Virus record (IMG/VR): IMGVR_UViG_3300004369_000030
Coordinates: 1-46,608 of that record
From: a virus
Strand: one strand, 5' to 3'
Length of the DNA: 46,608 nt
Positions 2,171 through 41,846 of the stretch are shown piece after piece. How positions within the stretch are numbered: position 1 is the stretch's first letter; every line of letters starts with the position of its first letter. The notes beneath the pieces are model-generated. The model did no database searches. It was not told the origin of the DNA and saw nothing but the letters and a program-made list of their open reading frames with translations. The position numbers and the translations under genes are program-made.

Positions 2171-2175
2171 GGTTT

Positions 2176-14533: not shown

Positions 14534-16162
14534 TTATTGGTTATTTTTCCAATAATCCCTGACAAACTGGGCGCCGCGTGGACCGAGGAAGTCATCAAAC
14601 GCAGCATCATCGTTGATCTCGAATGCGCCATCTCTTGTGCGCTTAGCAATCAACGACGGGGGTTGGACATTGTTATTCCAGAGGTAGAAGTCGTCGTACA
14701 GGCCACGAGTGATCTGTCGGGGGACAATCGGCTGCAATTCTCCAGCGATCTGACTGCCAAACCAGCCGGGTAGAACAGGACCACCCTCGGCCTTGTTTAT
14801 TGCGTTTCGGCTTGCGACTCTTTTATCCGCTTCAGCGCCCGGAACATATACAAAATGCCCGACCGTGGCATATCCGTGGCGCTTGGCCCATTCAAGGTGT
14901 TCGGTTCTTTTGCCGGTTCCGGTGACCACTACGTCTGTTCCTGCTTCGCGACCAGCATCCATCGCTCGGTCCGTAACGTCTCGGGATGCCGGGTGGACGG
15001 CTCCAGCGCCACGTCCATTATCCCAGCCCTCTAACTGTGTTTTAATCCAGTCGGGGTCGATGAATGCCGCCTCATTTGAGCGAGGCACATCGAGCGTTCC
15101 GTCTTCGATAAGGGATGTTTTTCCCGCCCCCGTTGTTCCACCAACAAAATGCAGGGTGCGGGATCCTTCTGGCTTATTTCTGTGTTCGGGCGCAACCTTG
15201 TTAATTATTGCTGCAGTTGCTGCGCGTCCACCAGAGCCAACTCTCCCTGATCGCATGCCACTGCGGAGATCACGGAACTGTTGCATCGAATTTTCGGATA
15301 GATTTTTCCGAACAGAGAGCGGAGCCTCCGGATACCAGCCCGGATCATTTTCCAGCAACTTCTCCCAAGAGGCTTTCGACGGCTTCTTTGGCTTCACGGC
15401 CTTCTTGACTGCCTTGCCGACATTCCTTACGACGGCAGGACGCTCAAACGGTGTTGAATCCTGAATAATTCCGTCGTTATCACCATCAACGGCGTTGGGG
15501 TCGTATGGCTGAGCAGACCGAAGCATCCGGCCAAGAGACTTGCCGTACAACTCTTCATGTAGGGAAACTTTCCGGCGCAACTTGCGCTTTTTCAGTTTTG
15601 CTTGCTCTTCTTCGAGAAGTCGACGTGCGCGCTGACGATCCATGCGGTCACGGTATCTGCGTCCAAGCGACGTTGATCCAGACCTACGGGCATAATCGGT
15701 GATGTTGGTGCATGGCGTCCAAACCGTGTTCCCTCCAGTAGAGCGTCGACGGGCCACTCCGATGCACCCCATCTGGCGAGCCCTACGTCGCGCGGAGTTG
15801 ATGTCAGTAAAAACATCCTCATCGCCATCGAAAGGAATTGCTGACGCTGCTTTTCCGCCAATCGCACCAGAAACCAGACCGGCGGAGATGGTGTCAATAG
15901 AGACGACGCCACGTTCGCCAAGTTTTTCCCAATTCTTTTTGTTCTTGGCTTTTTTCTTGCGGCCCTTGCGTTCGCGAACACCTTGAAAATCTCGAACCTT
16001 AGAAAGTACGGATTTTTCTTCCTGTTCCTGTTCGAGGCGCTCGTACTCTTCATGAGTCTCGCAGGCCATCCAACCACCATCGGGGTGCTGATGCGCGCCA
16101 GAGCAACCAAGTTCCTTGGCGCGCCGCAATGCGGCGGCTTTGCTCGCGGCGCCACCAGACAT
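14534..16162 (-). CDS. Zeta-toxin-like kinase with capsid-operon repeat modules
   Basis: 542 residues from the ATG at 16162, one base after the upstream stop. Residues 4-42 and 120-160 are two copies of a roughly 40-residue module (A..RA..(L/M)GC.G......GW..C....(E/D)Y.R). Residues about 205-240 hold the shared KSLGRMLRS plus VDGDNDGIIQDS...FERP module, and GMRSGR follows near 304. The C-terminal domain (about 330-510) is a P-loop kinase: GGTTGAGKTS with K348, IDPDWIK as substrate-side acid, VVVTGTG, then ADKRVASR. This order matches Zeta/UDP-GlcNAc kinases and their phage relatives. Zeta toxins phosphorylate UDP-sugars and block wall synthesis; the substrate here is unproven. No antitoxin gene is evident next door. 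Its place in the capsid operon suggests virion packaging. Confidence 0.8.
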   Translation of the reverse strand: MSGGAASKAAALRRAKELGCSGAHQHPDGGWMACETHEEYERLEQEQEEKSVLSKVRDFQGVRERKGRKKKAKNKKNWEKLGERGVVSIDTISAGLVSGAIGGKAASAIPFDGDEDVFTDINSARRRARQMGCIGVARRRSTGGNTVWTPCTNITDYARRSGSTSLGRRYRDRMDRQRARRLLEEEQAKLKKRKLRRKVSLHEELYGKSLGRMLRSAQPYDPNAVDGDNDGIIQDSTPFERPAVVRNVGKAVKKAVKPKKPSKASWEKLLENDPGWYPEAPLSVRKNLSENSMQQFRDLRSGMRSGRVGSGGRAATAAIINKVAPEHRNKPEGSRTLHFVGGTTGAGKTSLIEDGTLDVPRSNEAAFIDPDWIKTQLEGWDNGRGAGAVHPASRDVTDRAMDAGREAGTDVVVTGTGKRTEHLEWAKRHGYATVGHFVYVPGAEADKRVASRNAINKAEGGPVLPGWFGSQIAGELQPIVPRQITRGLYDDFYLWNNNVQPPSLIAKRTRDGAFEINDDAAFDDFLGPRGAQFVRDYWKNNQ

Positions 16163-16163
16163 G

Positions 16164-16526
16164 TCAGTCCCCGTAGTCGTAGTCCATCGACAATCGAGCA
16201 ACTTTCGAATCGCTGATTTCGATTTTCTCTAATTCTGCGGCAGCCTTCTGGGCCTCGAACTTTTCCTTGCCGTACCGCTTCTGGTACATCTCCGCTTCCT
16301 CGATCTGCTCCGTGTACTCATCAACGATGGGGGCATGTGGATCAGAGTCCGGGTCGGCATTTCCTGCCTCGCGAACTTTCTTCAGAAACTCTTCACGCAT
16401 CTCTGCGTCAATCGAGAATGGCGGATAGTCGGCAGCAACCGAAAGACGCTGGTGACTATCACCAAAGGTCTTTCGTGCGTTTACCTGATCTTCGTCGAGA
16501 TCTGAAGCGTAATAATTTTCTGCCAT
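16164..16526 (-). CDS. Hypothetical acidic protein
   Basis: A 120-residue acidic, probably helical protein (QIEEAEMYQKRYGKEKFEAQ, then AAAELEKIEISD). The ATG overlaps the stop of the giant upstream gene (TAATG), so it is translationally coupled. No family recognised; as a small partner between two putative effector proteins it might be an assembly or immunity factor, which is a guess. Confidence 0.65.
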   Translation of the reverse strand: MAENYYASDLDEDQVNARKTFGDSHQRLSVAADYPPFSIDAEMREEFLKKVREAGNADPDSDPHAPIVDEYTEQIEEAEMYQKRYGKEKFEAQKAAAELEKIEISDSKVARLSMDYDYGD

Positions 16527-19500
16527 TACTGTCCCTTCGCTGCGTTGACAATGATGTCGGCTTGATTCCCATTGATTGCTTCTGGAAGATCCAGAAGTGC
16601 AACCGTTCCACGGTTGTGGACAAGGATAACTCCACCATGGTCAATGTAGTCGATTCCCAGAAGTGGGGCGTAATAGCCCTCGTCGTACTTGCGCATCTTC
16701 TGCATGTACATAAGGGCGTCCCACATCTTTTCACGCCGCGAATCATCTGGCTTCATCTTGGCGTACATGTCCAGCCACTGGTCGTAAATACGACCCATAT
16801 CGGACTGCTCCAAGAGGCCAGCAGTGCCGAGGCGTTTTTCCGTCTCGTCAAGCCTCGTGCGGATTTGAGCAACGGCGTTTGCCGGGTCCTCCAACCTGAG
16901 CGCATCCTCGCCGACTTCCCTCATGAGGTCGTCGATGTGGTTGGCGAAGTTCTGGTGATCGCTCTTGATTTGGGACATTTCCGCAGCAGTTTTCTTCACT
17001 CCGCTAGGGTCAACGAAGCCGACGACACCATCACCGTAGTGGCCCCAGTGGCCGCCACGCTGAGTGGCCCAGTATTCACCAACGCCATAGGCGCGACCGC
17101 CCTGAGCAGGGATGAACCTGTCTGAGTCTTCCTTGTAGGAATCAACGTACCCTTGAGTGTCCTTGCCACGACCCATGCCTCGGTGGATGGGGGTCCATCC
17201 AGCATCGATGAGGGCTTGGAACTCATCCTGATCGAGCAGTACGGGTGAGCCGTTCATTTCGCCGTTTTCCCAAAGGTTGAGAAGAACGTCATCTTGAGTT
17301 TTGGCGCTGATTTCTCCAGACTGACGCTTCAGAATCTGGGCATTAATAAACCCAGCAAAGTCGACAAACTTGTCGTCAACAATCGGCGTTCCATCAGCGG
17401 CACGACTCAAAGGAAGTTTCTTGCGCCGTGATTCGTATTCCTTGCGAATCGCACCCTCATCGCGCTTGCCACGGAGTTTGCGGCGCGCACGACGGAGAAG
17501 TCGAGCAAGTTTACGCCGCGCGGTCTGTGTCGCCGAAACGTCGGCCTCGGTCGCTCGACGACCACTCTGGCCGGTCCGACGCATACGTCGGTTTTGACGG
17601 CGTTGCTTACGTTCGGGATCTGGACGAAGGATCCGGTCCGAAAGAGGGACCCTGCGCTTGCCCTTGCGCTTTGCTGCGCGCTCGGCGACGGCTTCAGTTT
17701 GTGCCTGTGCCCCCGCCCCTGCCTCGGACGAGTAGAACGACGACTCTGAGTTGAGGCCAAGTTTGGCTGGAGTGGGAATGGTGTCGTCTTCTTTGCGTGA
17801 ATCCCCAATAATTCGCTTCTTTGAAGCGGCATGGAGATGCTCAAGCATCGAATAATCGTTGTCGCGACGCATTTGTGAAAGCGTCTTAAGGTCGTCGAGT
17901 TGCTGCTGTACTGAGGTATGGGCAGTAGCAGTGATCTCGCCGTCCCTCAGGGCGCGGTCAAGTTCCGCTTGCATGATTGGAAGAAGATCGTCGGGTGGAG
18001 CAACCTGTTTCAACTCCTCCTCGGACATGTCATTTCGCCACAACCCATCGTCAATCATGTTTTGGCGGGCACCATCAAGAGGCGTCTTGCGAGTGATGTC
18101 CCAGAACAGGCGACCCTGACGATCCTTGGCGGCTTTTTCGACGACAGCGCGCTGCGTGTCACTCAATGACTCCCATGCCTGACCGTCAGTATCTGACATC
18201 TTCGTTTTGCCGGCGATTCCACGCCGTCTACGGGAGCGCATTCCGCCACCCAGACCGCTGGTTCCGGTTACATCCATTTGTGCCGCACGTCGGTCTGATC
18301 GCGTGATGCCTCGATCAGGGTTACGCCTTGAAGACGACATCCGAGTGGAGCGAATTCCCACCAAATCTTCCCTGCCGAGGGCTGCTCCGTACTGACGTCG
18401 AAGATCATCTTCGCTGGGCACGTAGCCAACTTTGCCGCGCCCACCATTTTTGGCGTTGCGCTTCAAGTCGTCAATTACGTCAGGACCCCAAATCTTTTTA
18501 AGCCACTGTTCGACTTCACGGCCAAACGACATTTTCCTTGAAAAGTGGGTTGTTCGATATGCAACACCAGAACCGGGAGGGGCTTGGAATCTTCCATGAC
18601 CGTCCGGACGGGGCCAACCTGAAATCACATCGCGACCCTGAGTTTTTGACCACAAATACAGGCGATCAGGAACAATAATTTTTCCGCCTTCACCGCCATC
18701 GCCGAGGTCCAAAACAAAATTGTTAGCAACCAAGAGTTCAAACAGGGGGCGGTCTTGGGCGGTCATTGGGACGTTGGTCTTGGGTGCCCCTCGACCATTT
18801 TCGCCGAAACCTAGAACCTTAAGGACATGCGCGTTGCTCGTTTCGCTGAACTCAGGTACTCCCGCGCGCGCTCGCTGCTCGGCGTTGGGTCGTCCGTTGC
18901 CGCCACCTTTGGGCTTTTTCTGGTTGCCCTTACGCTTCGCCCTGAGACCGGACATTCCCGCTTTGCGGCGATCGACCAACTCGTCAACCGCATCCTGAAG
19001 CATGTTGGACAGGTTTCCACGGTCCTCTTCGCTGATTCCCGTGAGGCGACCATTGATCTCTAAATCTCGGATTGAATCCCGAAGGTCGTTCATCAGGCTG
19101 CCTGCTGATCCCGTGTGGCCGTTGCCATTCAGAACCTGCGCCGCTTCCATGATATTGGACCTCATCCGATCGTCAAGATCCGCATAGCCGCCGTTATGAC
19201 GATCGATTCCGTCAACGAGTGTCCACATTTCTTTGCCGGTTGCGCGAGTCGAGCGCATTCCGCCCGCTTTGTGGATGTCTTCAAGGCCCAACTCGTCTTC
19301 GATATCACCTTCAAATCGGTACATCGTGCCGTTAGGGGTTTCAACGTAAAGACTGTGGTGGCCCCCAAGTGTTTCTGAAGGATCGTTGAAAGTACTTTCA
19401 GACCATGTTTGTTCGCGGAAGTACTCGTATGTTGCGCCCTTTAGTGGACCTTCGGTGATTCGACCTCTAGTGGTCTCTTCTTCGTTATTGATTCTTGCAC

Positions 19501-22081
19501 CCCATCCGGTGCGCCTACGGCTCGGCGTGTACATACTGCGAGAGTTGTCGTCGTCAATTTCGCCGGGGAAATCTCCTCGGAACTCGTCGATCTTTTCAAG
19601 AATTTCATCGAGGACGAGTTCGGCTTCGTCAGGATCGAAACCTTTTTCTTCGGCAAAATCTCGAATGTAGTCAGCACGACGGTTTCGGCGTCGGAGGGTT
19701 GCCGCGTCGCGCCGCATTTGGGATCGTCGACCCATCATGTCGCGCCCTAGAGCGCGCTGCCGGCGAATTTCGTCAGCGATTGCCATTCCGTCGGCGAAAT
19801 CTCCGTCGAAATTGTTTCGGACCCAGTTGTCCCATCCCTCTGGGTGGGCTTCGAAATAGGACTCCCAGAACTTGTCGATTCCGAGTTCTTCACGCAGTTC
19901 ATCGACTCGTTCTTTGACGAATGCGAGTCCGGAGTCGAGTTCCTCTTCTGTCATGCTGTCGACTGCTCGACGATTGCGTAGACCTTGGGTCAGTTGAGCA
20001 ATCTGATCGTCATCAAATCCGAGTTCACGGAGACGATTATCACGACTCTCCGCCAAGCGATTCATGCGATCGGAATCTTCAGGGATGATGTTGCCTCTAG
20101 AATCGCGGCGCACCTGACCGTCACCACGAGCAAGCCTCGTGGAGCGTGCTCCTTCTCCAACCGATAGGCGGGTTCCGCCGTTGTCTTCGATTGAGGGAGA
20201 AACCCAAGTTCCATCGGGCGAGTCAATCGCTCGTCCCAGAAGGTCGAGAACGTCGCCCTCTTCTGGCGATGGGTTGCCTTGCTCGACCTCTGCATTGTAA
20301 ATATCTTCGAGCATTTCGCGAAGTCGTTCCGCGTCAGCGCGGTCGAGACGAACAACGTCAACTCCAGCGGCAGCATCGTCGATCGCGTCAGAGAACTCTT
20401 GCCATAGTTCGTCTGCTTCAGAGTCATTGGCCGCCGCGATGTCATCACGGATACTGTCGACGATGTCAGACAGGTAGCCGACTTCTTCCATTGTTAGGTC
20501 GATGTCAACAAAATCACCCTCTGGCACCGACCCATCGTCGTTTTGCTCTCGGCGCGATGCTAGACCGCCGCTTCCTTCGAATTGTGAGCGGCTGTCCATT
20601 TCTGCCACTCGCTGAACCTCTTCCGCCGTGTCAAACTGAGTGTTGCTGTTGTTGTTGCGGTCACGGATCGAAATGCCTTCGACATCCATGTCGGAAAATC
20701 CAGATTGGCGACCTTCGAATTTTCCGGTTTCGTTGTTTTTGTAGATTTCTTCGATGCGTCCAAACTCGTCTCGACGACGTGAGACAAGTTCATATTTATC
20801 GTCGTTGCGCAGGTAGAAGGGGCGGTTCGTGTCGCTGCTCTCCCAGTCAGTTCTTTGGGACTGCATTTCGCGTTGCGAACGCATTCCGCCTCTATCGCGT
20901 GCCGGCGGTTCTGGGATAACCCGACCAGAGCGCTCGCGAACAGCACGACGTGACGGGCCGCCATCAGCACCCGGGGTGTTCACAATCCGGTTTTGACGTG
21001 CGCGCCCAGACGGGCTGGTTTCTGGAACAAAACGCTCACGGCGCAGGCGATCCACTGTCTCTGGGTCCATGCGAGGGTAGTCAGCCTCGCGATTACGCCG
21101 TCCAGCGCGACGCGATTGCAAACCCTGCCCGTCAATGCGGCGAATCAGATTCGCTTGATCACCGAGAAGTTCCTGCAAGCGTCCTTCGTCGATAGCGGCA
21201 TTGGCGTTACCCGCGCGACGCTGCTTCTCGATCTCCATTGAATCGCCATCAACGAGAGCGGAGATACGTCGCGCCATGTTCTTGGGAACCATGAACCTCG
21301 GGATGATTGGGCGTTCCATTCCGGGAACACCCTCAAAAACAATCCCGTCACTATCTCCGTCAACGCGACCAGTGATGTCGACGAACGACATTCCGCGAGG
21401 CGCAGAACGAAGACCGCCACCCAGTTTCGGTCCAAGAGCCTTTACTTCTGGTTCGAATGGGCTAAGACTGTAGCCAGAATGGTCGTGGCGGGCTTCAGCC
21501 TTTGCTTCGAACACTTCTTTAACGGTTCGGCGAAGCAGCCCTGAGCCATTTGCCATATTGGCAAGATCATCACTTAAGTATTCGTTATCGTCACGAGACT
21601 TGAAGGTTAGTCCTTTCAGTTCAACCCCAAGACGATCGAGTCGCACTTTCGCCATGACTGATGAGCGCGATGACTCATTAAGAAATGAACGCACTTTGAA
21701 CTCGACAGCGTCCTGAAAATCGTTGTCGTTGAAGAATGACAGGGGTGCTCCGGATACGTCGAGGAGCAGCGAATTTGCCCCGGTCTTCTTTGATCCGGCA
21801 TAAATCATCGACTCGCGATTGGGTAGCGTCACATCTCGGTTTCCGTCAATCATGTCCGCAATAAGAATTTCCTCATTGCTCGACATTCCCCGGAAGTCTC
21901 CGACTTCAACGCCATAAGGAAGTTCGTCCTGAAGGCTCTTTGTTTCCAGTTCGTTGTACGACTCCGCCCATGCTGTGCCTTTGGCGGAAAGGCCATAACA
22001 AGTGTCCAACATGTTGTCTCGAACAACTAGACCAAACGGCTCACCAGAGATCTGGTCTTTAACAATGGCGTATTGCTTCAC
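16526..22081 (-). CDS. Giant modular virion-operon protein with C-terminal ART-like domain
   Basis: 1851 residues from a GTG with a good GGAGGTAAC site, overlapping the upstream stop (GTGA). Residues 1-190 form a distinct N-terminal domain. EVKALGPKLGGGLRS and VDGDSDGIVFEGVPGMERP (near 215-255) are the shared module. The middle is long, charged and poorly ordered in appearance, with G[MI]RSxR motifs at about 20.88, 19.26, 18.35 and 18.24 kb. The C-terminus resembles ADP-ribosyltransferases: WTPIHRGMGRG (R near 1629), then GRAYGVGEYWAT (near 1660) and GVVGFVDPS, ending with GVILVHNRGTVALLD. The glutamate usual in R-S-E enzymes is not clear to me, so activity is uncertain. I infer a capsid-delivered effector; a structural role is the alternative. 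Confidence 0.75.
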   Translation of the reverse strand: MKQYAIVKDQISGEPFGLVVRDNMLDTCYGLSAKGTAWAESYNELETKSLQDELPYGVEVGDFRGMSSNEEILIADMIDGNRDVTLPNRESMIYAGSKKTGANSLLLDVSGAPLSFFNDNDFQDAVEFKVRSFLNESSRSSVMAKVRLDRLGVELKGLTFKSRDDNEYLSDDLANMANGSGLLRRTVKEVFEAKAEARHDHSGYSLSPFEPEVKALGPKLGGGLRSAPRGMSFVDITGRVDGDSDGIVFEGVPGMERPIIPRFMVPKNMARRISALVDGDSMEIEKQRRAGNANAAIDEGRLQELLGDQANLIRRIDGQGLQSRRAGRRNREADYPRMDPETVDRLRRERFVPETSPSGRARQNRIVNTPGADGGPSRRAVRERSGRVIPEPPARDRGGMRSQREMQSQRTDWESSDTNRPFYLRNDDKYELVSRRRDEFGRIEEIYKNNETGKFEGRQSGFSDMDVEGISIRDRNNNSNTQFDTAEEVQRVAEMDSRSQFEGSGGLASRREQNDDGSVPEGDFVDIDLTMEEVGYLSDIVDSIRDDIAAANDSEADELWQEFSDAIDDAAAGVDVVRLDRADAERLREMLEDIYNAEVEQGNPSPEEGDVLDLLGRAIDSPDGTWVSPSIEDNGGTRLSVGEGARSTRLARGDGQVRRDSRGNIIPEDSDRMNRLAESRDNRLRELGFDDDQIAQLTQGLRNRRAVDSMTEEELDSGLAFVKERVDELREELGIDKFWESYFEAHPEGWDNWVRNNFDGDFADGMAIADEIRRQRALGRDMMGRRSQMRRDAATLRRRNRRADYIRDFAEEKGFDPDEAELVLDEILEKIDEFRGDFPGEIDDDNSRSMYTPSRRRTGWGARINNEEETTRGRITEGPLKGATYEYFREQTWSESTFNDPSETLGGHHSLYVETPNGTMYRFEGDIEDELGLEDIHKAGGMRSTRATGKEMWTLVDGIDRHNGGYADLDDRMRSNIMEAAQVLNGNGHTGSAGSLMNDLRDSIRDLEINGRLTGISEEDRGNLSNMLQDAVDELVDRRKAGMSGLRAKRKGNQKKPKGGGNGRPNAEQRARAGVPEFSETSNAHVLKVLGFGENGRGAPKTNVPMTAQDRPLFELLVANNFVLDLGDGGEGGKIIVPDRLYLWSKTQGRDVISGWPRPDGHGRFQAPPGSGVAYRTTHFSRKMSFGREVEQWLKKIWGPDVIDDLKRNAKNGGRGKVGYVPSEDDLRRQYGAALGREDLVGIRSTRMSSSRRNPDRGITRSDRRAAQMDVTGTSGLGGGMRSRRRRGIAGKTKMSDTDGQAWESLSDTQRAVVEKAAKDRQGRLFWDITRKTPLDGARQNMIDDGLWRNDMSEEELKQVAPPDDLLPIMQAELDRALRDGEITATAHTSVQQQLDDLKTLSQMRRDNDYSMLEHLHAASKKRIIGDSRKEDDTIPTPAKLGLNSESSFYSSEAGAGAQAQTEAVAERAAKRKGKRRVPLSDRILRPDPERKQRRQNRRMRRTGQSGRRATEADVSATQTARRKLARLLRRARRKLRGKRDEGAIRKEYESRRKKLPLSRAADGTPIVDDKFVDFAGFINAQILKRQSGEISAKTQDDVLLNLWENGEMNGSPVLLDQDEFQALIDAGWTPIHRGMGRGKDTQGYVDSYKEDSDRFIPAQGGRAYGVGEYWATQRGGHWGHYGDGVVGFVDPSGVKKTAAEMSQIKSDHQNFANHIDDLMREVGEDALRLEDPANAVAQIRTRLDETEKRLGTAGLLEQSDMGRIYDQWLDMYAKMKPDDSRREKMWDALMYMQKMRKYDEGYYAPLLGIDYIDHGGVILVHNRGTVALLDLPEAINGNQADIIVNAAKGQ

Positions 22082-24683: not shown

Positions 24684-24700
24684 GATACCTACAGTTTAGT

Positions 24701-25123: not shown

Positions 25124-25130
25124 GATTTCC

Positions 25131-33800: not shown

Positions 33801-35321
33801 CTTGAAAAAATCCTGTATTGATTGCCACTGGGCCCCTTCACTCCCCGAACCATCAGTTGACACAATGCGAATTTTTCCGTCATTGAGGAAAAATGCTCCA
33901 TCGTCTTCGATCATCGGTCGAAGGACTTGGACCAATGGATTGAACTGCATGGTGAGTCCGAAGCCGTCGGCAGTCAACGCTCCGGGGATCAACTCTGCTT
34001 CAGTAGCCCAGTAACTTTTGAGATTGTCCTTGCTGGGTTCAAAAGCGCGGAACTCTAAAACCTTGAGGTTTCGCGCAGTGTCTGGGTCGTCATGAAACTC
34101 GTGAAGAACACCTTCGAGGAAACCTCGCATAACGTCATGATGGCGCTGGACGAGAAGATCAACCATCTGCGCTTTGGCAGCATCGTCTAAAGAAGGGTCA
34201 ATTTGGTCTAGGTAGTTTTGACGCAGGGTGGCGTCCATCTTCTGGAGGTTTTCCCACAAAGTGAGAGTGTCGTCGCCAATAGCGTTACCGAAAATGTCCG
34301 TGAATAACCCTTGCCAAGCAACGTCCCACATCCCGCTTTCGTTCAGTCGGTCAAGAGTGTCCCACAGGTCAGCGTTTAAATCTGTGTCTCCGGTTGCCCC
34401 AACCATGTTGCGCAAGGTGTCAAGGGCTGAGTCCTTGTCCATAAGACGTTGATCAAAGACAGCCTGAGGGGCAAGCATTTGCGATGCTGCCTCCATGGCG
34501 CGTCTGTTGGAGGCGAATCGTGGATCGTCCTCATTGGCATCCAAGAATTCCATGTAGCGGCCCATGGCCACGTGATTGTTGAACCAACTTCCGACACGTC
34601 CAAGCATTCGCCTTGCCGCTCGGGTCGGAACAAAGCAGTTGGTTCCGAATTCGTCGGTGAACTGGTTCGCAGCAGGGGTTCCGGGAGGACATCTAAACTT
34701 TCCAAGTTCATCGACGATGACACCTAGAGCGCTCGCCGCCCTTGAACCGATGTTTCCTCCGGGGACATAAGAAGAAAGACTTCTTCCTAGTGCCTTTACC
34801 TCAACGTCACCGGATAGGGATTTTATGTTGACGCGCCGTTTGGACTCTTCGATGCGCTTTCCCGTTCGTGGATCCGCATCGTATTCGTCTACAACAATTT
34901 TTGGTCCACGCTTACGAAAGTCAAGCGCTTCAGCCATGGCCTTCTGTCGTTCAGCGGGCCGCATTTTCTTCGGTGGGGCAACCCATCCGAAGTTCGGCTC
35001 GTTCCCCGGACGCAACATGTCCTCTGCGGTGACGTGAAGTTTTAGGACATCACCCGGGCTGCGCTTCTTATTCGGAGCAAAACGAATTTCGGGGATAGTT
35101 TCTGCAACACCGGTACCGGCAGTCCGTTTCTCAGACCCTTTGCCACCACCAACAGAATTTCCATTGAGTGCCTTAACTGACCACTCTGGATCAATTTCAG
35201 TTTTGGTGCTTGCGATAGCCGCATGGATGCGGAATCGCTGTCCGATTGCCTCGTAGTCGCGTCTCGGGCTACCTAGTACACGTTCTGAGGTTATGTGTCT
35301 GGTGGCTCGGGTTAGGGCCAT
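27870..35321 (-). CDS. Giant 2483-aa virion-operon protein with zincin and ART-like domains
   Basis: At 7.45 kb this is one sixth of the window. Order: an N-terminal domain; IKSLSGDVEVKALGRSL near residues 160-180; the two-Cys module FRCPPGTPAANQFTD (C211, C229); a zincin HEMGH at 541-545 with EGMTELRAL near 665 as candidate third ligand; a Pro-rich linker at about 697-740; then a long charged region with G[ML]RSxR motifs at about 32.09, 30.32 and 29.66 kb. A Gly/Ala-rich segment near 1740-1770 (SSGGPAGVAAVIARRAG) could touch membranes. The C-terminus is ART-like: VPLTRGG, then GVDGAGLYFAV (near 2280) and VILYNRTSVAV (near 2413), matching the end of the 1851-residue protein. I infer a multi-domain effector ejected with the DNA. 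A tail or capsid-decoration function is the alternative. Confidence 0.8.
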   Translation of the reverse strand: MALTRATRHITSERVLGSPRRDYEAIGQRFRIHAAIASTKTEIDPEWSVKALNGNSVGGGKGSEKRTAGTGVAETIPEIRFAPNKKRSPGDVLKLHVTAEDMLRPGNEPNFGWVAPPKKMRPAERQKAMAEALDFRKRGPKIVVDEYDADPRTGKRIEESKRRVNIKSLSGDVEVKALGRSLSSYVPGGNIGSRAASALGVIVDELGKFRCPPGTPAANQFTDEFGTNCFVPTRAARRMLGRVGSWFNNHVAMGRYMEFLDANEDDPRFASNRRAMEAASQMLAPQAVFDQRLMDKDSALDTLRNMVGATGDTDLNADLWDTLDRLNESGMWDVAWQGLFTDIFGNAIGDDTLTLWENLQKMDATLRQNYLDQIDPSLDDAAKAQMVDLLVQRHHDVMRGFLEGVLHEFHDDPDTARNLKVLEFRAFEPSKDNLKSYWATEAELIPGALTADGFGLTMQFNPLVQVLRPMIEDDGAFFLNDGKIRIVSTDGSGSEGAQWQSIQDFFKDQIDLERWKDKYATDLSAARHKSLQASSRHTAYHEMGHLQQYSVLQKTILEDFNKRGVVYLATSQGPQAIVTPPDQWDNLTWMQAINTTMSQSLPQEYLPEGFPPVGITAFEGSMLHILSGAYYQDLVEKYWHGGEDTPDWMGPLADDSGQTLAVMLMEGMTELRALQRMGVVDSELIDQNIEWMNNRSDLNPPGTPGGPPRWNPPPPGQPQPPTPPSAPPTNPPNAPPGDPVPDDTELDIIPSGITWMVDKETGEIQPTQGPWDLMERYFISRFGGRPDDKTGGHQEIPRKSIARTWQWSDVSYAQLGGDELDRRFGILREDADNLIDRMDAGEQLDDDELARLWMASKGMAQIADENARRRNANAEIRQRRSDKFERNDAGNIFRKSKKPYRKNAKDGDEIYDEDKYRQAMIQIEESIPMRNPDAPRSWTRDPDGYGSEQAMDARRRMTAAEQAAMTKDLQERNKRYVHGGTDLEEAVERAAKVRGQKHDNTEAHPSPAQEISQTILPVLDAMEGNPVQETVEGYVINTDEITDWTGPRPIDGSGSGLWGPKREFEFDLGMELREGMRSQRSRGFVELRVVSSREESRLDYDGVEGRTKIVVPKGSRGMWREDDNGDYAKLTLPPGDFDVVEDADGMRTLIPSRQESSSDFADRLLSDMDQWGRPRSVAEMRERSELEKVLRGRQVGEPRHVRSHFSQDSAVRNRMIKRRNEIDRGFAKNGIEPFNPDFSARDTSLDQSSATRMILASDRLTDGDLLGNLRTSDGVEFSMTPEALDFIERSGSDAVVKKVSEAAEAWHEGVDRRVRSRISSDELATLLETGAPSRPERSSVLSAFERNNGWPDGAPRESLPMFGHATHAVHEDIVDDMLDANGRGGFPALRRAGFFDHSGESPHGPLSALGESDIVLRPEVSMRSAYGMGDILRDPVSLTRLNDNDPRRYASQLSVSRRGDGDTAMRMGNLLHAGLTGDFRGVQMRNMPPEVSKNGMMTRLPSSFGAADIPMETAIAGGFDLQDIERIDVPINSLGWQRLELNRGDIDFEGSGLAGVLRNAGWSNSEIDFLATSIADGRLTSVKSANLLRQHRVADADKIRFDRLGLNVRYTNSEGIDLFSRRDLTTSTDSGARIGRVRNVEEALLVRLNDEVGARQATLRPVVQEGMRSFRRQIQDRISERVSDEAATRIGGVAERIPTVTPNRRGRVVQRLLSSDRVERLMRQSGLEDDNIEMIQLVGEMAIGFSSGGPAGVAAVIARRAGREGIDFAVEKAVAQGWLSPEQSRKILAAADRVAPEGLPDAVTDAMSDAVDKVVDSEAGDRARLLADAVTERVREIGIGDRVESARDKIRRRLGVGGEQSSTPALDIAPDDPFGGSATWDPFSSTGLRSTRVSTTKERFPELTIPEDGNFEGLHRFHREFGISDDDITQDTLRRVLETLGDDFQVDDGWGGGSTKPLREMLEQGWDDNKYLAVYSQQGALDMITSVEASDLDPDVKQQVIDDLKFVGAVAEIGRVSYATRPKPPGRQRNDDPFGDPLPEPEPPTVAELQSRIDEVLSNAPEDFDERLRDALEIRRNRVERKAKAKEIETELTNRMYEYERQQRYGPERIEVDPSAEVGQATRAKSAAQDIADHEPQDGVTRPPQDLQELMPQTHAVADDLTSEKHRQELIDLLVNNPELQQAFEVLQQRIDNPYGMYEGETNDMDAREGTAYAGRMIVDALISARGYDGGALRLTEEEIDLLQAVHGFVPLTRGGSIEPQRMTIENDGLPIGEGVDGAGLYFAVQGANPEREVVEHFDASVYAGEQGGVIRAVMSPTARMGSVTVVSKMVEEARLGWRGETLDANVEERNPIVALHRALQADPANAKALEAFENMMFRSADNSGEFNNATSIAAILMGYDGLSSYAAKSGDNRVILYNRTSVAVSRTMHTASEYTEMKPWERLQERATKLAEDMDIPVNMSPEEKTQWILAETQRRLESLYA

Positions 35322-35344
35322 TGGGACCCACTCTTTCCCGGCCC

Positions 35345-36727
35345 TCAGGCGAGACCGTCGTCGTCGCCGTCCTCGCTGGTCAGCAGTTCGAACTCAACAA
35401 GCGACTGCATGAAGTCCGCATCACTGATGGCGCTGACAGCGTCCTCCTTCTTCTTGGTCGCCCAACTGGCGGGAAGCATGTCTTCCTTGCCCATTTCGCG
35501 AGCGCGCTTCATGATGTGGCGCTTCGCCTTGTCCTTGTCGGCGGCGCGACCGTGAGCCATGATCGCATTGCGAAGGTCGTCCACATTCGAGATCGGGAAC
35601 GAACCGTCAGGAAGAGCAAGGCCCTCCTTGGCCATTTCCTCGCGCTGCTCCTCATTGAAAGCGCGCTTCAGGGCGATCTCGGCGGCTTCAGCCTCGATCT
35701 CCTCGGCCTCTTCCGGCTCGTAGGCGTCGAATCCAAGAACCTCGCCGTCGAGTGCAACGAACACGTCATAAGACTTTCCGTCAATTCCGTCGATCTCAAC
35801 GGCGTAACAGTCGAAGCCCTCGAAAGTGTCGGGCTCAACAGCCATCACGGATCCGTCAATTCCGTCAAGGCTCTTGACAGCGATGTCACACGCCTCGTTG
35901 AAGTCGATGAGTTCCGTTTCGCTGTAAAGCGACTTCTGCTCGAACACTGAATCGTCGAGTCGGTGGAAACCGAGAACCTCGCCGGTTGTGCCTTCCATGA
36001 AGACCTCAATGGCTCGGCCATCCTTCACCTGAAGATCAACGATGTAAATGTCGCTGCTCTGGGAGTAGCCGGAGTCGATGACGGTTCCGTCAAACTCTGC
36101 TTCGGCCTTGCCCTCGATCTCGATGAGTCCGGGCATACCCTTCTCCGACATGCATCCGCCCGGGCAGTCGTCACACATGCCGCTACTACCGGGATACACC
36201 TTGCGGTCAATAGCACACAAGAAGCCAGAGGCGCCAACATCGGCGCTCTTCTTGCCCATGGTCTGAAGACGGCGCTTGCGGGCCGGATCCATCCAACCCT
36301 TCTCCATGGGGGCTGGAGCCTCTTCCTCGTCTTCTTCGTCTTCCTCGTCCTCTTCGTCGCCCATTTCGGCGTCGGGAGTAGGGGCGTCCTCGGATTCGGC
36401 GGGAGTATCTTCCTCGCCAGCATCGGCTTCGCCGCCCTCTTCCTCTTCGTCTTCCTCGTCGTCGTCGTCGTCGCCCATCTCTGCGTCCATTGCCGCAAGA
36501 GCCTTCTTCACGAGTTCGTCGTCTTCGTCGATCCCTTCCATTTTTTCGTCGTCGACCTCTTCGTCATCGACGGGGACCATTTTCATGGCAACCGGCATGG
36601 CGCCACACTTGCCACAGACCTTGGCGCCAGCCTTGTAGCCACATTCGTCGCCACCCAGACCTTTTGCGCACTTCAGGACGTCGCCATCAGCGTCAATCTT
36701 GACAACTGCTTTCTCGTCGTAACTCAT
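35345..36727 (-). CDS. Acidic capsid-assembly protein with zinc ribbon, PepSY-like and DUF6582-like domains
   Basis: 460 residues from the ATG at 36727, nine bases after AAGGAG. C20, C29, C38 and C41 form a zinc ribbon. Residues about 55-150 are extremely acidic (runs of Asp and Glu). A second Cys cluster (MCDDCPGGC) follows. Two repeated segments (IYIVDLQVKDG...GEVLGF and YDVFVALDGEVLGF) resemble PepSY domains. The C-terminal part LPDGSFPISNVDDLRNAIMA, then GRAADKDKAKRHIMKRA and LPASW, matches the DUF6582 pattern common in phage capsid modules. Position between protease and capsid plus acidity suggest a scaffold or assembly role. The frame stays open 32 codons upstream to an ATG at 36823, adding four cysteines. 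Confidence 0.75.
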   Translation of the reverse strand: MSYDEKAVVKIDADGDVLKCAKGLGGDECGYKAGAKVCGKCGAMPVAMKMVPVDDEEVDDEKMEGIDEDDELVKKALAAMDAEMGDDDDDEEDEEEEGGEADAGEEDTPAESEDAPTPDAEMGDEEDEEDEEDEEEAPAPMEKGWMDPARKRRLQTMGKKSADVGASGFLCAIDRKVYPGSSGMCDDCPGGCMSEKGMPGLIEIEGKAEAEFDGTVIDSGYSQSSDIYIVDLQVKDGRAIEVFMEGTTGEVLGFHRLDDSVFEQKSLYSETELIDFNEACDIAVKSLDGIDGSVMAVEPDTFEGFDCYAVEIDGIDGKSYDVFVALDGEVLGFDAYEPEEAEEIEAEAAEIALKRAFNEEQREEMAKEGLALPDGSFPISNVDDLRNAIMAHGRAADKDKAKRHIMKRAREMGKEDMLPASWATKKKEDAVSAISDADFMQSLVEFELLTSEDGDDDGLA

Positions 36728-36908
36728 CGTGACTGGCTCCTTATAGTGCATGTTCTTGAGTAGGCAACCCTTGGGGAGACTACATCCTTCACATGGCATC
36801 ATAGTCTTGCAACCGGAGACCATGCAGAAGTATTGGGCTTATTTTTACGAGGACCGTTTGTCAAATTGTACCTTACAACAGAGTGCCTCCGTGGGAAAGC
36901 ACGCTTAA
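36728..36908 (-). promoter_or_regulatory. Gap after the protease gene with promoter-like elements
   Basis: A 181-base gap. GTACAAT (36871-36865) is the same -10-like element as at three other sites; its predicted start near 36858 would yield a leader of 35 bases to the ATG at 36823 or 130 bases to 36727. TTGACA (36864-36859) directly follows but has no good -10 at the right distance. AAGGAG lies just before 36727. The gap also encodes the optional Cys-rich N-terminal extension of the next gene. Confidence 0.4.
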
Positions 36909-39900
36909 TCAATTGTTCGGGATGTTTACCGTCCGTCCTTGCGAGTTTGTCCTTTGCTGGCTCCTACTGGTGATTTCTTCAGTTGTGCCCATGATGAAGG
37001 TTCCCATTGCCGCTTCAGCAAAAAGATCGATCAGTCGGGAGAACATTTCGACCCTTGATCCTCCTGTTTCCATTTGGCGATCAACCACAACCATCAAGGC
37101 GTCCATAATTTGGTCGACTTCATCTTGAGTGACAGTAATTGTCCCAACATTGGTGCGACGGTCAGAGATTTTCCCTGCATCTTGGCGACCCATGATTCTT
37201 TGTAGGAGCGTCAATGCGTCGGCAGTGGTGCGATCATTTGCTGAGCGCGCTTCACGGATTTCCTTTGCCAAGGAATCCTCAACTTTTTTAAAGAAGGTCG
37301 CTTCTTCAATAATCTGCGTTCGGCCTGCTCTTTCGGAGCGCATTCCACCAGAGATTCGATTTTCCGCATAATCATTAACGATCGCGCTTGGTTGGTAATT
37401 GCGGAATGAGCGCATTCCTCCTTCCGAGAGGAATCTGGCCGCACTGACCCCGGAGTTTGGAATGTCGTTTTCGTCGACCCCACCGAAGCCTCCGCCCACA
37501 CTTGTGTCGCCCTGCTCAATGACGTCGGTTCCCTTGTAGAGATCAACCATCTCGTCAACGGTATTCTTCAGCGATCGAGCAGCCTGCATGCTGGCGGATT
37601 CTTTGGCGGTCAAATCCTCGCCTTGGAACTGCTCCATGTAATCGTCAAGAATTGATTGAACAGATTCAAGCATTGACATCGTTACTTCATCACCCTCGCT
37701 GACGATATCCGACAACGAATCCCAGACTTCGCGGTGCTCCTCTGAGGCATCGCCATCAGCAACGGCTTCGCTGGTTCTGGTCTGGTTGCCAGCAACACGT
37801 TTGTCAACCTTGTTCAAGTCGCGACGACGCCGTGCGGACCATTGTTCAGCGGTCATTTCTGGCGCATCTTCTTCTTCTGGTGCGTCACCGTCGCCCTCTC
37901 GGCGAGTGGTAGCGGGCCGTGAAGGAGCCTCACGTGTGCCGTCGGCCAACTCTTGAGCAATCTGACTGCGGCGATTTCTCCGTGCTGCGCGACGCTCTTC
38001 GTCTTCGATGCGCTTCGAAATTTCTTTCGAAAGTCTTTGGAAATCAACTTCCCGCATACCACTCTTGTTGGGGTGGTAGAAAGCGTAAAGGTCATCAAAC
38101 TGCTGGTCAGCGGGTAGATCGTCCCATCCTTCCGGTTTGATGTCTTCCCACTTCTTGCCTTTGAACCGTCCATCTTCCTGAATGGTTCCCATTGGGCGAC
38201 CACGCTGGCGTTCTTTGCCGGTATCGCGGGTTTCCGCTGAAACGGTAGGTCGACCAGACCCACCATCATCACGCTCAGAACGAAGTCCGCTCATGCTGGA
38301 GGATCGCGAGTTTTGCAAGATCGCCCATCCCTTAGGGGAGATGTCGTCAACTTCAAGTCCAGCAAAACGGTCTCGAACTTCTGGCTGGCCGTCACTTTGA
38401 CCCCAGCGCAAAAGTTCACCCATGTTGCGCCTAGTCAAGCCCATCGGTGCAGGGCGACGATTGTTGAAACCGCCCCCCTTCTTCAGGTTTGGTGACTCGT
38501 ATGTGGCGTTGGGGGAAAGTGCAGCAAGGTCAATTACGTCTTTGGCCGCACGCATGACTGGATTGATCTCACCAGCCTCGTTGCGCTTGGCAAACTCGTT
38601 CAATCCACTTTGGATTCGGCGTGCGACATCAGCAGGCATTTTGTCAGAGTTGCCTTGAAGCCACTTATCAAATTCTGCGAATGCGGCAATACCTTGAGAA
38701 TTGCCTTTCTCCTTCTCTAGCACCCGACGAATATCGCCGCGTTCATCTGGCGTCAACTTGAGGGAGATCCCATTATCCGGAATGCCCGGATTGCTTCTCG
38801 GGCCCATCGTGTTTAACTTCTGTCGATCCGGGTCGAGGTTCCCGTCAACCCATCGATTGTTTTTTGCGCCATTTTTCATGCGCGACAAGAAGTCGGAGAG
38901 TTCTAGCAGTTTTCCAGATTCGTCATCTCCAATTCGAGATGTGACAGCATCGATTGCAATCTGAAGATTTGAACGATTAACGATAGAGGGGCCAGTCTCG
39001 GGGTCAATTTGAGATCCGAGTTCCCTCAAGGCGTCAGAGAGCGTCCTGTCGATGTTGGCGTTGTCTGCAAAGTCTTGCAGAGTATCGGCGTAGGCAATGC
39101 GGTTTCGTGCCGGTGCGACCAGTTCGATTTCGTCGTTATTCTTCCTAGTCGAACGCATTCCGCCCTTCTTGGGTCCCTTGATTGATTCCCAAGCGGCATT
39201 CACTCCGTCACGAAGTTTTTTGGTTTTGTCGTAACTGTTGTAAGGGTTTTCGTCGCGACCCTGAGTCGTATCAAAACGGAACTTACGAATCTCGTCCGGC
39301 GTCAATACCGAGCGTGAGTTGAACCACTCTTCGTCCTCACGGAGAAGCCGTTCCTGCAGATCAAACTCATCAGCGTCATTCATTTCCTCAATAAGAGACT
39401 GCATGTAAAATGCGTACTCTTCATCTTCGATTTCATCCGCATCAAAATTGTCGCGAAGATACTTGTCTCCTGCTGCTTCACGATCTTCCGCATTTTTTAG
39501 GGCCCTGTAGTCCTCGCGAGTCATACCAAGGCGGCGGGCGGTTTTATCGATTTCGCCGTCTGTGTAACGGCGCTCTTCAGCCAGATCTTCCAACTTTTGC
39601 TCTACGGTCTCACCGTAGTCTGCAAAATCCGCAATATGGTCGTCAATTGTCGACAGGCGATCTTCCGCCTCGTTCAGGTCACCCAGAGCACCAATGAACC
39701 ACGACTCGTAGTCATCAACGAGTCTTTGTGCATCTTCGTCGGTGACCTTGTCTGCGCCCATACGGTTGGAAAGAATTGACTTGGCCAAATCAAGATTTGA
39801 TCGGCCTTGCTCCATTTCCAGTAGAGACATTGCCCACAGGTCTTCATAGGACTTGCCGGACCGGTCCATCATGTCTTCGACAATTTTGTCGATTTCCTCG

Positions 39901-41846
39901 ATGGCCTCTTTCGCTTCAGTTTGCACTTCTTCAAAATTCATGCGCTCAAGACGTTGCTTATAGGAATTTGAACGCATGGATCGAATGCCGGTATCCGTAG
40001 TAGTTTCGCTGCCGGCCTGCCGAACACTAGGGGCAGACGGAAGTTTTGGCGTCTTGGGCGTGGCAGGACGCTCGAATGGTGAGCCTTCCTGAACTAAGCC
40101 GTCGTTGTCGCCATCAACTGCGTTTGGATCGAATCGTTGAGTGGCGGCCCGTAAGGACCTAAGTGCTTTTTTTGAACCACCCCCAAAGATGTTCTTGCTG
40201 GCGGTATAGACCGCTTCCAAGAACTCTTCGGTGGCTCCTGAAAGGACCTTGATTCCGAATTCCGTTACTTCAACTTCAGCATTGTGATACTCAAAAATTG
40301 GGTCAAGTTCTGATTTCACCCGGAAGGCTTGCGATGAATCGCACTCGATGATGATGTTCTGCTCTTCCTCGTCAAAACCCGACATGCTCGTCATGTAGGC
40401 CAACGATTTTTCCTCATCGTCGTAGTACTTCTCTCGCGGCTCAAAAATCGCCGCCATGGTCGGCTCTTCCTGACCACCAGCGTAGGCACGACTGGTCGAC
40501 TGGTTCGGCTTGACCTGCATTGGCATTGCCGGCATTTGCGAAGGAACAACCGTACTCATCGGCTGGAACGTCATTTGAGGCACAACACGCTCGGGCTTTC
40601 CGAACATGTATTGCTGAGTCTCTTGATCCCAGTGGTAAGGAAGGCGATAGTACTTCTTCATGCCTTCCTTCATTTTTGCGAAAATGACGATATTTTCAGT
40701 TGCACTCATCAACTTGATGGGGGCCTGAACTCGGGAGGCGATCTCCATTTCGAGAGAGTTGCGCTTCTCGGCGTTCAACGGTTGTGCTTCGCCTTCGGCG
40801 AAAATGTCGCGACGCGGCTCTGGCTTGCGGACGGGGACCATCCGCATCATCATGTGGCCCTTCTCGTCGAAGTCGTCGAAGTCAACGGAATCCCAAAGTT
40901 CTTCTTCGGACTGGCTCTTCACCTCGTCGAGAGCCATCTCTGTGAATTCTTCCTCGAAGAACATTTCGTAATCGGAGAAATCAAAGTCTTCCTCCCATTG
41001 AGCATCCTTTTTCTTCGAGTTTTCGTAACGCTCCAGCATTCGCCGTCCCTTGGCTGCGAGTTTTGCTGCGTCGCTGCGGTTTTGGGGAACCGGCTCACCC
41101 CACGCGGCGGCGGAAAGGGCAAGGCGCGTTGGCTTGCCGTTCGGCTTTTTCATGGGGCCGGACGGGTTGGTGAAGAAACGGGTCAAGAAAGAACCTTTGC
41201 GGCGCATTTTCTGCGGCGTGTCGGCGGCACCACGGACGCCGGGCTTCAGATTTGCACCCTCTGTACGCTTGAAATGACGACGACCGGCAGCGGTGAGGCC
41301 ACCCTTGGGGTCGCGGAGTTTTGCCTGCTTGATCGAGATTGTGCCCGTCAACTGGTTAGCACCATGAAGAACAGGGCTGACTTCGTAAAGTTCGACTTCT
41401 TTGAGAACATTGGCCTGCTTTGACGGGTCGAACACGGCGTCGAGCGTCTTGTAACCAATCGACCACTCTTGCTCTAGCCCGAAAAATTGCACGTTCGCGA
41501 ACGCTTCCCGCCCCTTTTCGGAGTTCAGGTTGAACTGGACCTTTGCATAAAGGCCACCAATTCCGGCTCGCTTCATCTTCTCGGGAAGGCGAGGGTCAGA
41601 GGGCGGAACCTCGTAAATCTCAAGGACTTTTCCAATTGGGTCGTTCCAGTTGTGACCCCAGACCACGCGCGGCTTGCGGCGCTTCAGGCTTCCGTTGAAC
41701 GCTCCGGGAGCGCAAATGTCCCCCACCGAGTCTTTATTGCCGATGCCCGCAACGAAGCATTCGACAATACCTTTCGAGTCATTTACGGAAACTTGGCCGG
41801 CTGGCGCCGCTTTGAACTCGATGTCATCGATCTGAGAATCAGGCAT
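36909..41846 (-). CDS. HK97-family prohead protease fused to DUF6321-like domain and giant tail
   Basis: 1645 residues, where family members usually have about 200. Residues 1-175 are the protease: CFVAGIGNKDSVGDICAPGAF, VVWGHNWNDPIGKV with H65, EWSIGYKT with S129, and VELYEVSPVLHGAN with an acidic third member. Residues about 182-290 match DUF6321 (GLTAAGRRHFKRTEGANLKP, RRKGSFLTRFFTNPSGP, LALSAAAWGEPVP), normally a separate small phage gene. Near 560-590 come KKALRSLRAATQRFDP and the EF-hand-like VDGDNDGLVQEGSPFERP. The remaining 1000 residues are charged, with five G[MIL]RSxR motifs (39.98, 39.16, 38.28, 37.41 and 37.34 kb). The protease would cleave capsid and, I infer, itself and the other module-bearing proteins. 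GGGAGAAACCC precedes the ATG. Confidence 0.88.
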   Translation of the reverse strand: MPDSQIDDIEFKAAPAGQVSVNDSKGIVECFVAGIGNKDSVGDICAPGAFNGSLKRRKPRVVWGHNWNDPIGKVLEIYEVPPSDPRLPEKMKRAGIGGLYAKVQFNLNSEKGREAFANVQFFGLEQEWSIGYKTLDAVFDPSKQANVLKEVELYEVSPVLHGANQLTGTISIKQAKLRDPKGGLTAAGRRHFKRTEGANLKPGVRGAADTPQKMRRKGSFLTRFFTNPSGPMKKPNGKPTRLALSAAAWGEPVPQNRSDAAKLAAKGRRMLERYENSKKKDAQWEEDFDFSDYEMFFEEEFTEMALDEVKSQSEEELWDSVDFDDFDEKGHMMMRMVPVRKPEPRRDIFAEGEAQPLNAEKRNSLEMEIASRVQAPIKLMSATENIVIFAKMKEGMKKYYRLPYHWDQETQQYMFGKPERVVPQMTFQPMSTVVPSQMPAMPMQVKPNQSTSRAYAGGQEEPTMAAIFEPREKYYDDEEKSLAYMTSMSGFDEEEQNIIIECDSSQAFRVKSELDPIFEYHNAEVEVTEFGIKVLSGATEEFLEAVYTASKNIFGGGSKKALRSLRAATQRFDPNAVDGDNDGLVQEGSPFERPATPKTPKLPSAPSVRQAGSETTTDTGIRSMRSNSYKQRLERMNFEEVQTEAKEAIEEIDKIVEDMMDRSGKSYEDLWAMSLLEMEQGRSNLDLAKSILSNRMGADKVTDEDAQRLVDDYESWFIGALGDLNEAEDRLSTIDDHIADFADYGETVEQKLEDLAEERRYTDGEIDKTARRLGMTREDYRALKNAEDREAAGDKYLRDNFDADEIEDEEYAFYMQSLIEEMNDADEFDLQERLLREDEEWFNSRSVLTPDEIRKFRFDTTQGRDENPYNSYDKTKKLRDGVNAAWESIKGPKKGGMRSTRKNNDEIELVAPARNRIAYADTLQDFADNANIDRTLSDALRELGSQIDPETGPSIVNRSNLQIAIDAVTSRIGDDESGKLLELSDFLSRMKNGAKNNRWVDGNLDPDRQKLNTMGPRSNPGIPDNGISLKLTPDERGDIRRVLEKEKGNSQGIAAFAEFDKWLQGNSDKMPADVARRIQSGLNEFAKRNEAGEINPVMRAAKDVIDLAALSPNATYESPNLKKGGGFNNRRPAPMGLTRRNMGELLRWGQSDGQPEVRDRFAGLEVDDISPKGWAILQNSRSSSMSGLRSERDDGGSGRPTVSAETRDTGKERQRGRPMGTIQEDGRFKGKKWEDIKPEGWDDLPADQQFDDLYAFYHPNKSGMREVDFQRLSKEISKRIEDEERRAARRNRRSQIAQELADGTREAPSRPATTRREGDGDAPEEEDAPEMTAEQWSARRRRDLNKVDKRVAGNQTRTSEAVADGDASEEHREVWDSLSDIVSEGDEVTMSMLESVQSILDDYMEQFQGEDLTAKESASMQAARSLKNTVDEMVDLYKGTDVIEQGDTSVGGGFGGVDENDIPNSGVSAARFLSEGGMRSFRNYQPSAIVNDYAENRISGGMRSERAGRTQIIEEATFFKKVEDSLAKEIREARSANDRTTADALTLLQRIMGRQDAGKISDRRTNVGTITVTQDEVDQIMDALMVVVDRQMETGGSRVEMFSRLIDLFAEAAMGTFIMGTTEEITSRSQQRTNSQGRTVNIPNN

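Follow-up and report, generated by a model that had tools for sequence, protein, structure and literature searches.

We analysed the complete virus record IMGVR_UViG_3300004369_000030, a stretch of 46,608 nucleotides (46.6 kb) that is referred to here as the window, and found that one short motif, G[MLI]RSxR, recurs throughout an operon of large to giant proteins lying between the portal gene and the HK97-type major capsid gene. This operon, in which all open reading frames (ORFs) are on the minus strand, encodes five such proteins of 1645, 2483, 847, 1851 and 542-555 residues (giants 1 to 4 and protein 5), together with partners of 492, 150, 216 and 654 residues and smaller ORFs. A motif-punctuated polyprotein architecture is in our view well supported. 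As to its function, we favour the reading that the operon specifies virion-packaged effector polyproteins with cut sites between their modules, and that a Peptidase_S78 domain at the start of giant 1 would be the cutter; we give this a probability of about 0.5.

A recurrent motif in the large proteins of the operon

In the window G[MLI]RSxR occurs 14 times, across all five large proteins, and not once in the other ORFs; the looser form GMxSxR was found 10 times in the operon and once elsewhere. De novo pattern counting returned G.RS.R with 15 copies against 0.43 expected (Poisson, uncorrected for the number of patterns). Giant 1 (36909-41846) carries GIRSMR at residue 620 (39972-39989), GMRSTR at 896 (39144-39161), GLRSER at 1187 (38271-38288), GMRSFR at 1477 (37401-37418) and GMRSER at 1501 (37329-37346), the last directly before a conserved C-terminal module. 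From the N-terminus, the order in this protein is the S78 domain, DUF6321 (also matched by Pfam), a DxDxDG tag, three long segments with motifs between them, a spacer of 18 residues flanked by two motifs, and the C-terminal module. Giant 2 (27870-35321) has GMRSQR at residue 1075 (32082-32099), GMRSFR at 1666 (30309-30326; a matching site lies near the protein end in the related genome G002) and GLRSTR at 1887 (29646-29663), while giant 3 (25131-27674) has a single GMRSRR (27021-27038). The four sites of giant 4 (16526-22081) are GMRSQR at residue 399 (20870-20887), GMRSTR at 941 (19244-19261), GIRSTR at 1242 (18341-18358) and GMRSRR at 1280 (18227-18244), and protein 5 (14534-16201; 555 residues from a TTG, 542 from the first ATG) contains GMRSGR (15242-15259).

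The codons differ between these copies, which argues for selection at the protein level. When giant 1 was aligned with five relatives, four of its five sites were better kept than their flanks (0.72 vs 0.23, 0.80 vs 0.39, 0.60 vs 0.32 and 0.48 vs 0.40); at the fifth (0.12 vs 0.28) the alignment is shifted by one residue, and no site is present there in the protein of locus L005. A tag of the form DxDxDGxVQEGxxFERP is found in giant 1 at 40065-40130, with weak phrog_7924 matches, and similar tags in the 847-, 1851- and 555-residue proteins bring its occurrence to four of the five large window proteins. In all 18 proteins that have both, the tag precedes the first motif site. An initial annotation of the window had described modules repeated across these genes, which is true in the sense that the short linear motif recurs across them, as does the D-x-D-x-DG tag; it had overlooked the motif as such, the versions peculiar to each lineage, the fusions of about 4000 residues and the large family to which they belong.

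Relatives were collected from viral contigs, using the best 80 of 308 stretches related to giant 1 (79 distinct loci) and the best 80 of 426 related to the capsid protein, two overlapping sets. We compared gene order in nine regions, namely the window and eight related genomes. Homologues of the portal protein, of the S78 domain and of the 492-, 216- and 654-residue partners were present in all nine with their order kept, and the capsid gene followed in order in eight, the G017 record ending before it; the gene order described by the initial annotation is found in other phages as well. In eight of the nine regions the protease forms part of a giant, and in G005 it is a separate ORF of 586 residues without the motif. 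In G007 and G008 it heads single ORFs of 4203 and 3967 residues with 16 and 12 motif copies, respectively. Giant 3 is matched only in ORFs of 154-174 residues in G007, G008, G011 and G012, and protein 5 only in ORFs of 246 and 387 residues in G007 and G008.

The motif differs between lineages. The versions seen were RLSSG/RFSSG, LRSSG, GFAS, RGLAS, GLxSxT, GLxSxR, GMxSR, ISGxM, VSGxM, PTASM and STRS, most of which have the core hydrophobic-x-Ser. Their enrichment is strong in the same uncorrected Poisson terms (R.SSG, 14 copies vs 0.12 expected; GLAS, 11 vs 0.09), and when 20 loci were each shuffled once, no such pattern exceeded 5 copies. The motif was counted 19 times in the 11156 operon residues of G008 against once in 36834 residues elsewhere, and 11 times in the G002 operon against once in 33926 residues, drawn from roughly 100 kb of the remaining record. 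It was absent from the portal, 492-, 216- and 654-residue homologues of all nine genomes and from the capsid protein of all eight that have it. Among 105 loci scored de novo, many of them near-identical copies of one phage, 38 reached a score of 10.

Some further observations were made during this survey. The sole R[LFMI]SSG outside the G008 operon lies in an ORF of 1706 residues (G008:C1:33795-38912, minus strand, L191), perhaps another virion protein. The large ORFs of L030 and L064 contain strong pentapeptide-like repeats (L.GA.L and A.LS.A) that are unrelated to the motif. A contig from a Phycisphaerae metagenome-assembled genome (L189, JASLZV010000001.1) encodes an S78 giant of 2698 residues with GFRSQR before a KTSC-like segment, and is perhaps a mis-binned phage of this group. 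With giant 2 as the query, no relatives were found in viral contigs (back-translated patterns) and no phage record by tblastn; the 654-residue partner as a query likewise found none. We also considered the motif as an internal translation start, which was rejected because several lineage versions have no Met, and as a DNA-level recombination site, which is not favoured because codons vary between copies.

Position of the sites relative to modules and domains

Pfam scans were run on 13 large proteins from relatives. One of these (L109) gave no match and another (L163) was excluded for want of a clear motif; the remaining 11, together with two window proteins, were used to compare sites with domains, with lineage patterns set by hand from the de novo results. 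None of 110 sites lay inside a Pfam domain, against 17.3 expected under uniform placement, an expectation for which relatives such as L170, L172 and L043 count as independent genomes. Words of like composition fell inside domains in 77 of 526 cases, against 82 expected. The sub-cut-off domains KTSC (L062, L076) and ParB_N (L076) were included, and other sub-cut-off matches such as WYL (L170), BLOC1_2 (L043), Nop5_N (L047) and HTH/ATG17_like (L169), none of which contains a site, were left out.

Recognisable domains occupy the stretches between sites. UvrD lies between sites in L170, L172 and L047, a pentapeptide block does so in L121, and in L133 the NUDIX, HTH, DnaJ and Zeta domains each have an inter-site segment of their own. 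ArdcN and MPTase-PolyVal come right after a site in L170, L172 and L043 (RLSSG) and in L121 (GMASR), the local version of the motif standing 8-19 residues ahead of the ArdC cassette in all four proteins. Two or more conflict-type domains are joined in single proteins, namely S78, UvrD, ArdcN and MPTase-PolyVal in L170, NUDIX, HTH, DnaJ and Zeta in L133, and Zeta, pentapeptide, ArdcN and MPTase in L121.

The sites also avoid protein ends: in 45 complete proteins with 201 sites, none lay in the first and one in the last 100 residues, where 9.8 were expected each. This lone end site is in giant 2 of G002, which stops 32 residues past it, at a place where the window protein continues for about 800 residues. 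Residues 560-1645 of giant 1, modelled with AlphaFold on an alignment of 10 sequences, were mostly helical, with a mean predicted local distance difference test (pLDDT) score of 70.7 and a predicted template-modelling score of 0.31. All five sites of giant 1 were in stretches with pLDDT <50 (246 of 1086 residues), one of them a 12-residue dip (333-344); one further internal stretch of low pLDDT (743-771) has no motif.

The site before the C-terminal module of giant 1 can be followed from genome to genome, and its orthologues read GMRSER, GLRSEK, TLRSSG, GFASTS, GMRSAK, GLSSST, GFSSST, GLRSDR and GLRSER. We took these sites as probes, chosen by the general hydrophobic-x-Ser pattern and not by genome-specific patterns. 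Eight of 10 matched the other large proteins of their own genome above the average of other genomes when four of six residues were required, and seven of 10 did so at the stricter five of six. The comparison suggests a reader acting on all sites of a genome.

As for enzyme domains in the window, the prohead protease that the initial annotation had claimed was recovered as Peptidase_S78 at residues 27-170 of giant 1 (41337-41768; E 2.7e-11, 44.3 bits vs a cut-off of 21). Its stretches WGHNW and EWSIGY were kept in 26 of 26 sequences, which had been chosen by similarity and partly by loose forms of these same stretches. The claimed Zeta-like kinase was borne out too: protein 5, which also matches DUF3721, has a Zeta_toxin domain over the cut-off at residues 342-469 (14795-15178; E 2.3e-9, 37.4 bits vs 22.3) that contains a P-loop and starts 22 residues past the motif. 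Both claimed HEMGH sites are present, at residue 541 of giant 2 (33687-33701) and residue 446 of giant 3 (26325-26339). In the former the H, E and H (H151, E152 and H155), together with E276/E280, do not vary among the eight aligned sequences (the window and seven homologues, 20-67% identity); by this conserved HExxH and downstream acidic residue, the giant 2 segment fits a putative zincin metallopeptidase. The giant 3 site is kept in G002 and was not found in the G004 and G005 homologues by the pattern HE[MLIVFTAG][GA]H.

Two ADP-ribosyltransferase (ART)-like ends had also been proposed, at the C-termini of giant 2 (27873-29081) and giant 4 (16529-17401; model pLDDT 83). The two are mutually homologous (hhalign probability 95.5) and resemble ARTs in motif, an invariant R-G and G-x-G-E-Y being taken as ART-like. 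Among the window proteins neither end had a Pfam match. A fold search with the giant 4 C-terminus gave no PDB match at E 0.001 and a VIA Z of at most 5.6, over its helical part, and neither the ART-like nor the zincin alignment yielded a credible hit when used as a profile against PDB sequences. In BFVD, five matches at E <=0.001 had no functional name, and an entry for a PolyVal ADP-ribosyltransferase stood at rank 7 (E 0.025). The identity of the ends as ADP-ribosyltransferases is weakly supported. Giants 2, 3 and 4 had no Pfam match over the cut-off, none of the window's large proteins matched a MuF domain (Pfam, E 0.1), and each window protein has at most one domain that Pfam recognises as an enzyme. 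The initial picture of a series of giant modular effectors is partly supported: it holds for gene order, for enzyme domains of the kind found in injected polyvalent proteins (clearest in relatives), for the fused protease and for motif-joined segments, and weakly for the ART assignment.

What the motif may do

We propose that an N-terminal leader, including the DxDxDG...ERP tag in four of the five window proteins, would take each large protein into the assembling head. Behind the leader would stand folded modules, namely kinase, zincin and ART-like modules in the window and ArdC-metallopeptidase, UvrD, NUDIX, DnaJ and ParB-like modules in relatives, many of them separated by flexible linkers with one or two copies of the lineage motif. 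The S78 protease would cut the motif sites during head maturation, and the freed modules would stay inside the capsid until they pass, together with the DNA, into the host, where they could act as effectors. Since it is part of giant 1 and present in all nine regions, S78 is the natural candidate for the reader.

A number of observations weigh against this proposal. The S78 domain is 79-96% identical to that of the window in the eight related regions and 73-81% identical in 13 matching records out of 20 searched, including the ISGxM and STRS lineages; because the protease is nearly fixed, it is not obvious how it would read very different motifs. A shared hydrophobic-x-Ser core would reconcile most versions, ISGxM, STRS and PTASM excepted. 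At the delta-domain end of the capsid protein, the linker before the conserved G-E-x-F block matches the lineage motif in the LSS lineages L087, L088, L141 and L147, in some LRS lineages (L089, L106, L116) and perhaps in L107, and is without it in the window, L103, L120, L121, L133 and L143, so that the idea of a capsid site, strong on the first loci, became weaker once all were listed; the full lineage pattern is found in none of the eight capsid proteins. Given a near-constant protease alongside variable motifs, and a capsid linker that agrees with the motif in part of the lineages only, we put cutting at these sites at about even odds.

Other adverse points concern the sites themselves. A site separates 17 of 20 neighbouring domain pairs, modestly above the 13.8 expected at random (P 0.03), the unseparated pairs being S78-DUF6321 twice and DUF3721-Zeta in L121. 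Homology breakpoints are only about twofold enriched near sites (119 of 707 within 15 residues vs 9.3%), an enrichment that is modest because alignments break at any diverged linker. Two to three of the 10 genomes fail the comparison of orthologous sites (L066 and L057, and L004 at five of six residues), and the motif is missing from the giant 3 homologue in G004, from the Zeta protein in G002 and from both in G005. Best scores were below 6 for 30 of the 105 loci. The motif can nonetheless be seen in a few of these (L002, L007, L090), and unrelated repeats come out on top in some others. Finally, no recurrent motif of this kind was seen in the three closest cultured phages listed, GMA6 and DalanDe of Gordonia and Cantare of Brevibacterium (protease 39-42% and capsid 48-60% identity); in DalanDe (L186) EIKS occurs five times across gp27 and the capsid protein, against 0.03 expected, four copies lying in the latter.

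We weighed these points against other explanations. The motif might be a head-loading or tethering peptide bound by a head component (the capsid arm, the portal or the acidic partner), the chain then being delivered whole or cleaved at other places. Versions that change while the protease is nearly fixed would suit a binder distinct from the protease, and the confinement of the motif to putative cargo also speaks for this explanation; a loading tag would not need to avoid both protein ends, to lie between modules or to come at times in doublets, and we consider this explanation unlikely. Alternatively, the sites could be cut by the giants' own zincin modules (HEMGH or MPTase-PolyVal), either within the head or once injected. 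Several giants have such HExxH zincins or MPTase-PolyVal, and auto-release by metallopeptidases in polyvalent proteins is discussed by Iyer et al. (PMC5512222) in the text available to us; yet the pattern HE[MLIVFTAG][GA]H found none in the motif-bearing operon of G012, whereas S78 occurs in nine of nine regions, which makes a zincin cutter improbable.

It could also be that the motif merely marks flexible linkers, as a spacer spread by within-genome duplication that has no reader. The sites do lie in low-confidence, fast-evolving linkers of shared composition, and Ser codons are skewed at RLSSG sites: in L170, 31 of the 32 serine codons in its 16 RLSSG-type motifs are TCN, although AGC/AGT account for 30% of the gene's Ser codons, a possible trace of copying. 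Such a spacer is nevertheless hard to square with motif columns that are better kept than their flanks at four of five giant 1 sites, with codons that differ between copies, with like-composition words that do not avoid domains, and with an orthologous site that takes its genome's own version in eight of 10 cases, and we regard it as decidedly improbable. That the giants are structural proteins (tail, tape-measure or inner-core) with no effector role would suit the several segments without a recognisable domain, the mostly helical giant 1 and the three of five large window proteins without a Pfam match over the cut-off; given Zeta, ArdC, MPTase-PolyVal, UvrD, NUDIX and DnaJ in the corresponding genes of relatives, and the position between portal and capsid, we hold this to be very improbable.

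If effector polyproteins cut at the motif are the right explanation, many different enzymes could be loaded into one head with few loading signals, and splitting at the lineage motif would resolve thousands of residues of phage protein that lacks annotation into modules, each a candidate effector against bacterial defences. There are hundreds of related contigs (308 giant 1 and 426 capsid stretches), so this splitting rule can be tested at scale. A broader claim, to which we give slightly less than even odds, is that tailed phages have true effector polyproteins, giant chains headed by a prohead protease and written in a lineage-specific cut-site code, whose modules become exchangeable once coded and which are widespread in uncultured actinobacterial phages. 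One or a few chains would then carry up to about a dozen or more modules, as a tailed-phage counterpart of RNA-virus polyproteins. The data also raise the question of what reader would allow all the sites of a genome to change in concert next to a protease that hardly varies.

Neighbouring genes and comparison with known systems

The operon is flanked by the genes for the portal protein (41943-43925, minus strand; PF04860, E 3e-48) and the major capsid protein (13062-14477, minus strand; PF05065, E 1e-46), the latter matched by HK97 capsid chains at E 7e-58. Between giants 1 and 2 lies the acidic 492-residue partner (longest form; 35345-36823), and giants 3 and 4 are separated by the 150- (24701-25153), 216- (24033-24683) and 654-residue (22078-24042) partners; the 492-, 216- and 654-residue proteins are without the motif. 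This layout, flanking genes included, agrees with the initial annotation, as do the sizes 1645, 2483, 847 and 1851; 460 became 492, 652 became 654, and 542 is the first-ATG form of the 555-residue protein. The 654-residue partner has a DR...N stretch, presumably kinase-like, and in L108, L111, L117 and L128 a conserved domain of similar look is fused behind the ART-like domain. Elsewhere in the window, positions 2001-4000 show a GC skew of 0.38 and an AT skew of -0.36 over the ORFs 2241-3083 and 3065-3880, 5051-6508 encodes a carbamoyltransferase (Nol-like), and 10299-12224 a ribonucleotide reductase with a B12-dependent insertion domain. WhiB genes were found in 15 of 20 related records and, of 14 control genomes, were matched in Corynebacterium only; the hosts are therefore most likely Actinobacteria.

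In GMA6, DalanDe and Cantare the protease and capsid genes are adjacent, with no giant operon between them. An HExxH protein, identified by eye, is encoded upstream of the protease gene in GMA6 and Cantare, and in DalanDe gp27 about 1100 residues are fused ahead of the protease. The LPDGSFPI C-terminal module of the 492-residue partner resembles, also by eye, the C-terminus of the GMA6 protease Orf19 (L187); the giant insert may have divided what was a single protease ORF in an ancestor.

Large products of virion genes that combine enzyme and conflict domains, and are inferred to be packaged and injected, have been described as polyvalent proteins (PMC5512222), whose authors suggest release by peptidases and liken them to RNA-virus polyproteins. 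The operon shares with them ArdC-N and MPTase domains and perhaps ART. It differs in having several large proteins in series with S78 at the N-terminus, the assemblin-like peptidase being always C-terminal in what is available of that paper, and in its repeated lineage-specific motif between modules, of which we saw none there. In SPN3US (PMC10052503), according to the available portion, one prohead protease with the motif AXE, Ser being favoured next, processes nine head proteins, including abundant ejected ones, with several cuts within one propeptide. Mostly N-terminal propeptides are removed there, while here the motifs, up to 16 per protein and putative as cut sites, separate consecutive modules. 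Nudix domains fused to a capsid-processing serine peptidase, and ARTs beside portal genes, are reported in PMC9503650; in the accessible text of this source on virion-packaged ART/Nudix/MuF fusions, we saw no punctuating motif or operon of several giants. Among the titles and abstract openings listed from open-licence PubMed Central texts, none describes a lineage-specific motif between the modules of such proteins. Fusions of this kind are already known, as far as the available text on polyvalent proteins (PMC5512222) goes; what the present phages add is a punctuating lineage-specific motif, large proteins in series under an N-terminal S78, and the abundance of this arrangement in uncultured phages.

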